Source of the DNA: Saccharopolyspora elongata
GTDB taxonomy: Bacteria; Actinomycetota; Actinomycetes; Mycobacteriales; Pseudonocardiaceae
Assembly (NCBI RefSeq): GCF_004348985.1
Contig: NZ_SMKW01000032.1
Span: 1-64,000 of the forward strand
DNA: 64,000 nucleotides
Direction: 5' to 3'
The notes under the pieces were generated by a model. It saw nothing but the letters and a program-made list of their open reading frames with translations, was not told where the DNA came from and did not search any database. How positions within the stretch are numbered: position 1 is the stretch's first letter; every line of letters begins with the position of its first letter. Positions 4,250-55,933 of the stretch are shown here, in pieces. A program made the position numbers and the translations under genes.

Positions 4250-4293
4250 GCAATTTCAATGGAAATCGGGCCTTCGATTTCCATTGAAATCGC
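4250..4293. terminator. TTTC-N4-GAAA double palindrome
   Basis: Arms 4250-4268 and 4275-4293 form a 19-base inverted repeat with one mismatch and a 6-base loop (GGCCTT). Each arm itself holds the near-palindrome ATTTCAATGGAAAT. It lies just past the stop of the gene at 4307-5149 and before the small helical genes, so it probably ends that transcript. The same unit recurs at 31565 and 43510. Confidence 0.55.
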
Positions 4294-5358: not shown

Positions 5359-6213
5359 GTGCACAACCAGCTCTTCGACTACAGCCCGATCGTCGACCGC
5401 GCCCCGGTGCGGTGGCCGGACGGCGCCCGGCTGGCGTTCTACGTGGGCCTCAACGTCGAGCACTACGAGATCGACCGGCCGTCCACCAGCATCTTCGCCG
5501 GGACCAGGGACCTCGCGCCCGACCCGCTGAACTACGGCTGGCGGGACTACGGCCCGCGGGTCGGCATCTGGCGGCTGGTGGACATCTTCGACCGGCACGG
5601 CATCCGCCCCAGCGTGCTGCTGAACTCCGACGTCACCGAGCACAACCCGCAGATCATCGACGCGGGCAAGCAGCGCGACTGGGCCTGGTTGGCGCACGGC
5701 AAGAACAACTCGATCCTGCAGGCGGACATGCCGGTCGACGAGGAACGCGCCTACCTGCGGGACGTGGTGGACACCATCGAGGCCGCGACCGGCACCCGCC
5801 CGCGCGGGTGGATGGGGCCGGGGCTGACCGAAACGTTCCACACCCCGGAGCTGCTCGCGGAACTCGGCCTGCGGTACGTGCTCGACTGGAGCAACGACGA
5901 CCAGCCGTACCGGCTGAACGTGCCCGGCCTGCTCAGCGTGCCGTACCAGACCGAGCTCAACGACGTGACGATGTTCGTGGGCACCGGGGTGAGCGGCCCG
6001 GACTTCCTGCAGGCGGTCAAGGACCAGTTCGACCAGCTCTACGCCGAGTCGGCGGACAGCGGGCGGGTGATGTCGCTGGCGTTGCACCCGTTCGTCATCG
6101 GCCAGCCGTTCCGGGCCAAGTACCTGGACCAGGCGCTGGAGTACATCACCGGCCACGAGGGCGTGTGGCTGACCACCAGCGACGAGATCGCCGAGTCCTA
6201 CGCCAGGAACTAG
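5359..6213 (+). CDS. Polysaccharide deacetylase family protein (PuuE/allantoinase-like branch)
   Basis: A 284-residue NodB-fold enzyme, one of the metal-dependent amidohydrolases acting on N-acetylated sugars or, in the PuuE branch, on allantoin. The segment RDYGPRVGIWRLVDIFDRHG, the SVLLNSDV strand, and ATGTRPRGWMGPGLTET are typical of this branch. There is no signal peptide, so a cytoplasmic small-molecule substrate is more likely than cell wall. The start is GTG at 5359, preceded at five bases by a perfect AGGAGG (5348-5353), which rules out the upstream GTG at 5200. It converges on the PRC-barrel gene. Confidence 0.8.
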   Translation: MHNQLFDYSPIVDRAPVRWPDGARLAFYVGLNVEHYEIDRPSTSIFAGTRDLAPDPLNYGWRDYGPRVGIWRLVDIFDRHGIRPSVLLNSDVTEHNPQIIDAGKQRDWAWLAHGKNNSILQADMPVDEERAYLRDVVDTIEAATGTRPRGWMGPGLTETFHTPELLAELGLRYVLDWSNDDQPYRLNVPGLLSVPYQTELNDVTMFVGTGVSGPDFLQAVKDQFDQLYAESADSGRVMSLALHPFVIGQPFRAKYLDQALEYITGHEGVWLTTSDEIAESYARN

Positions 6214-6218
6214 TTTCC

Positions 6219-6350
6219 AGGCTCGTTTTGCGTGGCGGTGCGGGTAGCGGAACCTGAGAACCCGCGGCGGTGCAAGCTGCGTAGGTGGGCTAAGCGGCTG
6301 CGCCGCTTCAAGAACAAAAGCCCGCCCTACCGCACTTTCCGCGAATTCCC
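6219..6350 (-). repeat. Structured 3'-end repeat, copy C (main stem missing)
   Basis: Matches copies at 20950 and 54880 in its flanks (GCGGTGCGGGTAGCGGAACC, then TGAGAACCCGCGGCGGTGCA) and in the small hairpin AAGCGGC (6292-6298)/GCCGCTT (6302-6308). The roughly 85-base central stem of the other copies is absent, with GGAACC joined directly to TGAGAACCC at 6251. It sits between two convergent genes and probably serves as their terminator region. Confidence 0.7.
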
Positions 6351-17393: not shown

Positions 17394-17495
17394 CGGCGGG
17401 TTCTCAGGCGTCGCCTCGGGAGGACGACATCGGCGCTGCACATCGGTGAATGCGCGAACGGGATGTCGTCGACGGCGTCTGAGATTCCGCCTGTG
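17394..17495 (+). repeat. Structured 3'-end repeat, copy D (diverged)
   Basis: Flanks GCGGCGGGTTCTCAGG and CTGAGATTCCGC match the other copies. Outer arms 17403-17413 and 17473-17483 pair over 11 bases, two of them G-U on this strand. Inner arms GACGACATC (17423-17431) and GATGTCGTC (17462-17470) pair perfectly. The stem sequences differ from copies A and B while pairing is kept. It lies between the convergent glycosyltransferase and I36 genes. Confidence 0.65.
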
Positions 17496-20949: not shown

Positions 20950-21140
20950 GATCGAAGGCCTTCGCAAGCGGCGTAGCCGCTTAGCCCACCCTCGCAGCTT
21001 GCACCGCCGCGGGTTCTCAGGCGTCGTCTGGCGAGGACAGCCCCGACGCGTCGTATTGGTCATACGTGTGTCGGGGATCCCGGAGACCAGGCGGCGTCTG
21101 AGGTTCCGCTACCCGCACCCCACGCAAAACGAGCCTGGAA
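20950..21140 (+). repeat. Structured 3'-end repeat, copy A (full length)
   Basis: Main stem: arms 21016-21031 and 21087-21102 pair over all 16 bases, three as G-U on this strand (they would be A-C mismatches on the other). An inner CCCCGACGCG/CGTGTGTCGGGG stem again uses G-U pairs. A second hairpin AAGCGGC (20966-20972)/GCCGCTT (20976-20982) precedes it. It lies just past the 3' end of the acetate permease gene, in the opposite direction. Confidence 0.75.
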
Positions 21141-21151
21141 TCCAGTCGGTG

Positions 21152-31564: not shown

Positions 31565-31610
31565 CGCAATTTCCATTGAAATTGAACCTTCGATTTCAAT
31601 GGAAATTGCG
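31565..31610. terminator. TTTC-N4-GAAA double palindrome
   Basis: Arms 31565-31584 and 31591-31610 pair over 20 bases with one mismatch; the loop is AACCTT. It is the same unit as at 4250, in reverse order. It lies between the convergent DprE2-like and ArsR genes. Confidence 0.6.
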
Positions 31611-43509: not shown

Positions 43510-43554
43510 GCAATTTCAATGGAAATCAGACCTTCGATTTCAATGGAAATTGCG
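43510..43554. terminator. TTTC-N4-GAAA double palindrome
   Basis: Two ATTTCAATGGAAAT units in direct order (43510-43527, 43536-43554) within outer GCAATTTC/GAAATTGC arms. It lies between the convergent molybdoenzyme and CMD genes. Followed by two more palindromes in the next 75 bases. Confidence 0.55.
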
Positions 43555-43569
43555 GCAGTCATCCACAGC

Positions 43570-43601
43570 CTCCGGCGTGTCGTGCGCCCGACACGCCGGA
43601 G
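43570..43601. terminator. GC-rich hairpin
   Basis: CTCCGGCGTGTCG (43570-43582) pairs perfectly with CGACACGCCGGAG (43589-43601); loop TGCGCC. Middle one of three adjacent palindromes between convergent genes. Confidence 0.6.
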
Positions 43602-43606
43602 GTGTG

Positions 43607-43624
43607 CAGTTTCAATTGAAACTG
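43607..43624. repeat. Perfect palindrome CAGTTTCAATTGAAACTG
   Basis: An 18-base perfect palindrome carrying the TTTC-N4-GAAA core with AATT in the centre. It abuts the 3' end of the CMD-protein gene (stop at 43633). Confidence 0.6.
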
Positions 43625-54835: not shown

Positions 54836-54874
54836 GTCGATCACCTTTCGTCGAGCGAGTGTTCCAACGGTGGT

Positions 54875-55039
54875 TGCATAGCGGTGCGGGTAGCGGAACC
54901 TCAGCGGCCTTCTCGGCTCCGGGATCCCCGACTTATGTATGTCCAATACGCGGCGCTGGGGCTGTCCTCGCGAGAAGACCGCTGAGAACCCGCGGCGGTG
55001 CAAGCTGAGTCCCACACCACAAGCGGCTCCCGCCGCTTA
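54875..55039 (-). repeat. Structured 3'-end repeat, copy B
   Basis: Main stem arms 54900-54915 and 54971-54986 pair over all 16 bases on the minus strand, one as G-U (A-C on the other). The loop sequence resembles copy A but differs in detail. The small hairpin AAGCGGC/GCCGCTT (55021-55038) overlaps the ribokinase stop. The sense strand, judged by G-U pairs, is minus here. Confidence 0.75.
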
Positions 55040-55933
55040 TAAAGCAGGTCCTAGATCTTCGGAGTGGGGCAGGCCGGGGATCACCTCGTGGTGGGCGACG
55101 GCGAACGCCCCGGCCGCGGCGGCGTAGCGGGCGGCGCGGCGCAGGTCCCAGCCGCGGCACCACGCGACGGCGAAGGCGGCGTTGAACGCGTCGCCCGCGC
55201 CGGTGGTGTCCACGACGCGAGCCGCCCGGACCGGCGGGATGTGCGTGCGATCGGTGCCGTCGTCCACGTAGGCACCGTCGGTTCCGCAGGTCAGCGCGAT
55301 GGTCGAGGAAAACCGCTCGCGCAGCGCGTCCAGCAGGACGTCCGGGTCGGTGGTGTCCAGGCCGGTCAGCACCTGGGCCTCGGTGAGGTTCGGGGTGAGG
55401 AGGTCGACCAGGTCCGCGGCGTCCTGCGGCAGATCGCGGGCCGGGGCCGGGTTGAACAGAACCCGGGTGCCGCGGTCGGCGGCGGTCCGCACCGCGGAAA
55501 CGACCACGTCGGCGGGGATCTCGTTGCAGACCATCAGCAGGTCGGCGGCGGCGATGACGTCGGCGAAGCCGCCGACGTGCGCCGGGCGGAGCAGGTCGAG
55601 GGCGCCGGGCGCGACGATGATCCGGTTCTCGCCGTCGTCCTCGACGAGGATCACGCCGGTCATGGTCGACGCGTCGACGGTGACGACGGCGCTCGCGTCC
55701 ACGCCCTCGTGCCGCCACAGCTCGCGGCCCTGCGCGCCGAGCACGTCGTCGCCGATCGCGGTCAGCAGCGAGACTTCCGCGCCCAGCCGCGCGGCGCCGA
55801 TGGCCTGGTTCGACCCCTTGCCGCCGGGGCCGAGCGAGAAGGCGGCCCCGCCGAGCGTCTCCCCGCGCCCCGGCATCCGGCTGGTGCGCATGGTCATTCC
55901 CGTGCCGTAGCTGCCGACAACCGCGATCCGCAT
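55037..55933 (-). CDS. rbsK: Ribokinase
   Basis: 298 residues, PfkB family. LGPGGKGSNQAIGAARLGAEVSL (substrate and Gly-rich site), NPAPA, TPNLTEA, and DTTGAGDAFNAAFAVAW with the catalytic Asp. It phosphorylates ribose, feeding the pentose phosphate pathway. ATG preceded by GGGAGGTGTC. Transcribed leftward ahead of deoC but separated from it by the structured repeat (copy B). Confidence 0.9.
   Translation of the reverse strand: MRIAVVGSYGTGMTMRTSRMPGRGETLGGAAFSLGPGGKGSNQAIGAARLGAEVSLLTAIGDDVLGAQGRELWRHEGVDASAVVTVDASTMTGVILVEDDGENRIIVAPGALDLLRPAHVGGFADVIAAADLLMVCNEIPADVVVSAVRTAADRGTRVLFNPAPARDLPQDAADLVDLLTPNLTEAQVLTGLDTTDPDVLLDALRERFSSTIALTCGTDGAYVDDGTDRTHIPPVRAARVVDTTGAGDAFNAAFAVAWCRGWDLRRAARYAAAAGAFAVAHHEVIPGLPHSEDLGPAL

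Follow-up and report, generated by a model that had tools for sequence, protein, structure and literature searches.

The window analysed here is a stretch of 64,000 nucleotides from Saccharopolyspora elongata, a soil bacterium related to the producer of erythromycin. It holds four copies of a structured repeat at the places given in a preliminary description, and matches to a covariance model built from 41 copies of the same genome (termed R1) put A and D on the plus strand and B and C on the minus strand. All four lie at gene 3ʹ ends, as that description had it. The copies, the parts of copy A and a related landing site are listed below.

4254..4291, no strand: empty landing site, a palindrome at a gene 3ʹ end, with ATT at 4283-4285 in the window
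6211..6308, minus strand: copy C, without the central hairpin (R1, 102.2 bits)
17396..17491, plus strand: copy D, consisting of the core hairpin and flanked by convergent genes (R1, 33.2 bits, model positions 44-145)
20966..21144, plus strand: copy A, whole core, model positions 1-180 (R1, 202.6 bits)
20966..20982, plus strand: 5ʹ hairpin of A, AAGCGGC..GCCGCTT
20983..21008, plus strand: unpaired linker of A, rich in C and poor in G
21009..21031, plus strand: left arm of the long stem of A, type L-a, including GGTTC
21041..21076, plus strand: inner stem of A, CCCCGAC/GTCGGGG, with the apical hairpin CGTAT-TGGTC-ATACG
21087..21109, plus strand: right arm of the long stem of A, type R-a, including the second GGTTC
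21110..21144, plus strand: C-rich tail of A
54857..55038, minus strand: copy B, whole core, with a pfkB-type gene on one side and the following gene of the same strand on the other (R1, 166 bits)

The stop codon of a convergent SSF symporter gene (complement, from 21152) lies 7 nt past the end of the tail of A, and the 5ʹ hairpin of this copy shows two-sided changes in other members of the family (AAGCGCC/GGCGCTT, ATGCGGC/GCCGCAT). With the outer U-G counted, the stem beginning TCTCAG comprises 17 pairs in A and B, and the main stem of D has about 12. Read on the element strand, every non-Watson-Crick pair of this stem in A (four) and B (two) is a G-U, in agreement with the preliminary description. 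The central hairpin is present in A, B and D; in C, CTCAG is joined to GTTCC where it is missing. Of the flanks said to be shared, D has the core, GCGGGTTCTCAG..CTGAG.TTCCGC, in common with the other copies, but not the outer parts. Folding z-scores on the element strand are -3.2 for A, -4.2 for B, -3.3 for D and -1.0 for C. At the site of B, two relatives (G002 and G014) have a clean empty site. By eye, the insertion supplied the upstream pfkB-type gene with a new stop codon (55037-55062, ..CTA GGA CCT GCT TTA TAA), and at the empty site of both relatives this gene uses a downstream stop instead. A further relative, G008, has no copy C at the matching place.

The four places are a sample of a family of elements of about 180 nt with at least 150 R1 matches in the 10.3-Mb genome of the host, all at E values of 7.4e-12 or lower; a DNA search gave 40 scored matches among 288 candidates. 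Among 81 genomes (the host and 80 relatives), 28 have R1 matches. Within the genus, 21 of 22 genomes do, the sole exception under the stricter filters of this search being G019, and outside it the same search found the element in five other genera of the family and, as weak matches, in two genomes of another family. In an even draw of the order, 23 of 298 genomes from 8 genera were matched, 20 of these 23 belonging to the host's own family. No record in the plasmid and phage collections matches the element. Rfam 15 gave no match at gathering score in the window and 12 loci, in line with the statement that no named family has this shape, and two Rfam matches at E values up to 10 were dismissed as chance.

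In the consensus, the 5ʹ hairpin (AAGCGGC/GCCGCTT) is followed by a linker rich in C, then by a long hairpin whose stem has an inner and an apical part, and finally by a tail that is again C-rich. GGUUC occurs on both arms of the long hairpin, and the internal-loop letters GCGAGGACAGC / GATCCC are conserved. Short palindromes of the form CGTCAGGC-AAGCGGCG..CGCTT make up the 5ʹ end of three copies (L016, L039 and L047) and resemble CGTC-tagged REPs; palindromes of a similar CGTC type lie upstream of two others (L027 and L038). Pairing was assessed in three alignments. The first (A1) is a sequence-only alignment; the second (A2) contains 107 matches in 106 distinct rows from the host genome and its relatives; for the third (A3), 40 copies were taken from six other genera (12 genomes) and set against a structure drawn from the host genome only. 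A2 and A3 have three copies in common and are aligned to R1, towards which they lean; the pairing pattern of A1 is the same. Because the aligned copies are the best-scoring matches of each genome, intact folds are favoured in the figures that follow.

In A2, 97.5% of cells pair and 35 of the 47 pairs show two-sided change, with a covariation score of 0.281 against 0.101 for shuffles and at most 0.065 for slid structures. In the other genera of A3, 95.2% of cells pair, two-sided change is seen in 34 of 47 pairs, and the score is 0.402 against at most 0.079 for slid structures. The covariation test proposed in the preliminary description was run in an R-scape-like implementation of our own, a G-test with APC in which substitutions are re-placed on a FastTree tree, and all significant column pairs fell inside the structure. 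There were five such pairs in A3, where the structure of 47 pairs also holds 21 of the top 47, and four of four (20 null replicates) or two of two (40 null replicates) in A2. Stems had not decayed freely in most of the copies examined, which were the best-scoring ones, and pairing was not clearly worse in any gene orientation class.

The terminal 3ʹ hairpin, which on the opposite strand is followed by TTTT, is intact (at least six Watson-Crick pairs) in 19 of 89 copies, a count drawn from 108 copies of which 19 were without the segment found, and this speaks against a maintained terminator there. No higher raw stability of the element strand was found, this strand being the more stable in 44 of 105 copies; relative to shuffles the element strand does fold better (plus-minus difference of +1.8 versus +8.1 kcal/mol).

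The distribution of wobble pairs gives the fold a direction. Counted on the element strand over cells outside pairs with G-U as the commonest state, G-U exceeds A-C by 42 to 14 in the sequence-only A1, by 115 to 44 in A2 and by 58 to 18 in A3. Parsimony events in A2 tell the same way, with 77 changes from Watson-Crick to G-U and 35 to A-C, or 55 and 24 on terminal branches. In unpaired columns the per-base rates of C>T (0.050) and G>A (0.044) are similar, and that of T>C is above that of A>G, so that mutation bias offers no explanation of the excess. Moreover, all 40 copies of A3 have the same two wobbles at the GGUUC segments, one G-U and one U-G. An excess free of mutation bias, together with invariant wobbles, favours selection on one strand over self-correction of the hairpin; the strand under selection could be RNA or single-stranded DNA alike. 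In 74 of 103 copies the nearest downstream gene runs antisense to this strand, so that simple selection on its mRNA does not account for the excess.

Gene positions, taken from a gene caller of our own (codon log-odds), allowed 103 of 108 copies in the host genome to be classed, the other five lying at locus edges. Thirty lie between convergent genes, 44 are tandem and antisense, 19 tandem and sense, and 10 lie between divergent genes; the location at gene 3ʹ ends therefore applies genome-wide, on at least one side in 93 of the 103. For intergenic length, sampled in the window and 20 stretches of relatives, divergent spacers account for 41% and convergent ones for 16%. The antisense excess among tandem copies (44:19, p=0.002; 34:15, p=0.009 at the strictest settings) implies that in many cases no known transcript contains the element strand. 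Split by age, antisense and sense copies number 3 and 3 among the young and 41 and 16 among the old. The distance from the 3ʹ end of the element to the antisense stop codon has a median of 11 nt and is 60 nt or less in 66 of 75 copies. For the other genera 39 copies could be classed; 29 of these are followed by an antisense gene, with a median distance of 3 nt (n=29). C exceeds G in the linker of 103 and the tail of 104 of 107 copies, and in A3 in 33 and 38 of 40, respectively; in the window overall G is slightly more frequent than C. On inspection of the sequence, no U run follows the long hairpin on the element strand.

The family is also mobile, as is evident from a young subfamily for which terminal inverted repeats (TIRs) and target site duplications (TSDs) could be established; intact TIRs were not seen in copies A to D. 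The elements are about 180-290 bp long and have no transposase gene. The ends of the young subfamily are sharp, reading GAGCGTTTTTCATCC.. at the 5ʹ side and ..GGTTGGAAAAACCTC at the 3ʹ side, with GAGCGTTTTTCATCC / GAGGTTTTTCCAACC as the pair. A scan for the 5ʹ TIR with up to three mismatches found 27 sites, and none in a reversed control. The right end was located by pattern in 18 of them and the other nine were dropped. Of these 18 scripted copies, 16 are flanked by a direct repeat of 3 bp without mismatch (ATT, AAT or AGG), against a permutation mean of 7.9. The remaining two match at two of three bases, as do, by eye, four of the nine dropped sites (L309, L316, L318 and L325), which makes the TSD exact in 16 of 22 young copies when scripted and by-eye cases are taken together. 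Eight of 17 AWT insertions lie in palindromes with at least five of six matches, compared with 3.2% of background AAT sites, and the target palindrome score is 3.5 versus 2.9 for permuted partners (p=0.02). One insertion can be compared directly with its unoccupied target: the palindrome of G008 that is orthologous to window positions 4254-4291 is filled by a MITE copy, with its central hairpin missing, between two ATT, and compared with the unfilled palindrome of the window it has the element and an ATT in addition.

A related autonomous IS is present in the genus, in which 11 of 22 genomes have loci matching DDE_Tnp_4. In G021 this IS has three copies, and its end, GAGCGTTTTCCATCCTGATC, is identical to the MITE TIR at 18 of 20 positions; one copy lies within a palindrome, GATTTCAAT..CAATGGAAATC, of the same target type as that of the MITE. 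Palindromes of the type that serves both young MITEs and this IS as a landing site (TTTCAATGGAAA / TTTCCATTGAAA, often paired) constitute a second repeat in the window, at 4254-4291, 31569-31605 and 43514-43621, and adjoin the stop codons of called genes. The transposase of the G021 IS matches PF13359 (E 4.5e-21) and scores 67 bits against NF033581 (IS5 family), below the curated cut-off of 140, for which reason its place in the ISL2 subgroup is putative. Members of that subgroup follow a rule of 3-bp ANT duplications. Taken together, the TIRs, the 3-bp AWT duplications and the nearly matching IS5-type ends identify the young subfamily as a MITE in Saccharopolyspora. An autonomous IS carrying the fold is ruled out among the 30 PF13359 loci examined: the fold is absent from the inside of every one, and a single locus (L360) merely has an adjoining copy. 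Five genomes with at least 33 copies each (G002, G003, G004, G012 and G014) have no PF13359 match, so that mobility there is either past or due to another enzyme. In other genera, a TIR-like 15-mer (up to three mismatches) stands beside 3 of the 40 A3 copies. By eye, one stretch (L030:2300-2800) contains a complete copy nested within the stem of an older one. Additionally, a different MITE of about 200 bp, whose near-perfect ends belong to the TIR type of the young subfamily and whose duplication is AGT, was seen in L324 and L331 (G000:C60:7775-7976), inserted in a transposase-like remnant.

Copies turn over between close relatives. When 22 loci of the host genome were queried against G008, which is 96% identical at the window locus, and G006, both flanks were found in G008 for 20 of them, 12 with a gap of element length and 8 without. 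R1 found the element, or the bulk of it, in G008 at those 12 loci and remnants at two of the 8. End remnants in at least three of the 8 (idx 8, 17 and 18) indicate deletions, and a remnant at idx 12 that is present in G006 indicates loss in G008. In G006, 1 of 20 stretches (idx 9) has an R1 match above 30 bits. At idx 7, the core in G008 has the opposite orientation; a reversed core (80.9 bits) lies at L213:290-457 (G008:C42), which is orthologous to the host copy L016. The arm type differs at the same site in at least 8 of the 12 filled loci (idx 3, 5, 6, 9, 13, 15, 19 and 20). The left-arm types, L-a to L-d, occur in free combination with the right-arm types R-a and R-b, which rules out a coordinated exchange of both arms, and the simplest reason for the arm differences is ectopic conversion. 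Since close relatives often differ by an exchanged or deleted hairpin, part of the hairpin diversity is spread by recombination.

The preliminary description read the stems as the product of selection on an RNA hairpin. Compensatory change far in excess of the shuffled, slid and tree-based nulls sustains this reading, as does the one-strand G-U excess with no matching mutational asymmetry at unpaired sites. Against it stand the mobility of the elements as DNA, evident in TIRs, 3-bp duplications, a near-matching IS and an empty and filled site, and the antisense position of the G-U strand relative to the nearest downstream gene (74 of 103 copies). The label of RNA element is thus not the whole story, the element also being mobile DNA. 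That it is a dispersed mobile element whose fold is kept by selection on one strand can be asserted with considerable confidence. As a whole, the best explanation is a mobile element with a one-strand fold that acts as a directional 3ʹ-end module, a proposal for which belief and doubt are evenly balanced. Its mechanism would begin with transcription along the element strand, after which the fold would work as RNA and end or trim the transcript before an antisense run into the neighbouring gene; the element would then be a portable directional 3ʹ-end or insulator element at the stop codon of the opposite strand. Termination might be Rho-dependent, given that the unpaired parts are C-rich and G-poor. 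Mobility and target choice put the copies behind genes, but they do not explain why a one-strand fold is kept across genera while the terminal hairpin decays. Since the 3ʹ end of the selected strand abuts the stop codon of a neighbour, the simplest use to propose is the ending of antisense transcription. RNA-seq of S. erythraea, in which antisense transcription is enriched at gene 3ʹ ends, fits the insulator idea as far as the portion of PMC3610266 drawn on here goes. The specific role of terminator or insulator is nevertheless put forward tentatively, as somewhat less likely than not. Rather unlikely is a family-wide class of mobile insulators that act on transcription in one direction. In it a selected RNA fold, spread in Saccharopolyspora with IS5-type ends and bearing interchangeable hairpin cassettes, would sit with the 3ʹ end against stop codons of genes on the other strand and halt antisense or read-through transcription there.

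The main alternative, unlikely though it appears, is a selfish MITE that needs its fold as DNA, as a single-stranded hairpin or cruciform in transposition, replication or recombination. Selection would then act on the mobility of source copies with no gain to the host, and position would reflect target choice and tolerance. The TIRs, the TSDs and the near-matching IS all suit such an element, as do the palindromic targets of about half of the young insertions (8/17 versus 3.2% of background), the numerous deletions between relatives and the scarcity between divergent genes that tolerance predicts; a G-T wobble in single-stranded DNA would likewise be strand-specific. DDE transposases of this kind, however, act on double-stranded ends and would need no internal fold. 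Furthermore, the internal fold is kept (97.5% of cells) where the terminal hairpin has mostly decayed (intact in 19 of 89), and it persists in other genera, where a TIR-like 15-mer accompanies 3 of 40 copies. Quite improbable is a structured noncoding RNA that the element itself or leaky antisense promoters would give rise to, with effects in trans or on the gene lying antisense to it. A role in trans sits poorly with the presence of over 150 copies that are nearly redundant, even if the conserved internal-loop letters, the downstream gene that runs antisense to the element strand in 74 of 103 cases and, in the part of PMC3610266 that bears on this point, antisense enrichment at gene 3ʹ ends together with 190 putative ncRNAs in S. 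erythraea would all agree with it.

Two further accounts concern how the stems arose and how they move. Without any selection on the fold, template switching in replication could make one arm a copy of its partner and ectopic conversion could spread the product, and arm cassettes that differ from those of G008 at 8 or more of 12 filled orthologous loci, with left and right types combining independently, are what such a process would leave. It predicts equal numbers of G-U and A-C, however, and the observed 77:35 events and 115:44 cells depart from this with no mutational asymmetry at unpaired sites to account for the excess. The G-U and U-G pair invariant in 40 of 40 copies from other genera is also left unexplained, and the account is very improbable. 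A REP-type element moved by a Y1 (RAYT / IS200-IS605) transposase has a negligible probability, although the 5ʹ end of some copies looks like a palindrome with a CGTC tag (CGTCAGGC-AAGCGGCG..). The Y1 transposase is ruled out as the mover by the lack of any PF01797 match in four copy-rich genomes (G002, G003, G004 and G014, each with at least 33 copies) and by the 3-bp TSDs, which mostly refute it; the element was also absent from the 6 PF01797 loci, of 30, that were searched with R1.

If the reading of a mobile directional 3ʹ-end module is true, a transposable element conserved in its internal fold and not in its ends would illustrate the way in which bacterial genomes recruit mobile hairpins as gene-end signals. 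The family would provide a testable source of 3ʹ-end signals and antisense control in an industrial genus that includes producers of erythromycin and spinosyn, and a ready experiment already exists in its many natural copies, which occur in either orientation and have been exchanged or lost at orthologous sites. Among open-licence PMC papers, no title was found that describes the element.

Several known systems share some of its features. The ends and the target duplication of the young subfamily are like those of the ISL2 subgroup of the IS5 family, from which it differs in that the G021 IS is without the fold, its subgroup being putative. CGTC-tagged REPs, in the parts of PMC3733652 drawn on here, resemble the element in a short palindromic stem and a location mostly downstream of genes, and the 5ʹ hairpin of some copies begins with CGTC. 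Unlike these REPs, the element is about 180-290 bp long and bipartite and has TSDs of the DDE type; the words Actinobacteria and Saccharopolyspora are absent from the main text of that paper. Bacterial MITEs, going by a portion of PMC10969869, are likewise non-autonomous and mostly intergenic, with TIRs, a stable fold and direct repeats that fade with age. Compared with MITEs generally, as that portion presents them, the conserved part here is the internal fold, which outlasts the TIRs (3/40 in other genera). Judged by the sections of PMC3049150 used for the comparison, the element works most like the BOX and RUP repeats of pneumococci. These are also short interspersed repeats with a predicted folded transcript, mutual insertion and an excess between convergent genes, with ends proposed to match a resident IS and, in the case of BOX, modular parts. 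The two systems differ in sequence, host and IS type, and against BOX and RUP as described in those sections the Saccharopolyspora element is set apart by covariation across genera, a one-strand G-U excess, exchangeable arms and a 3ʹ end placed at stop codons.
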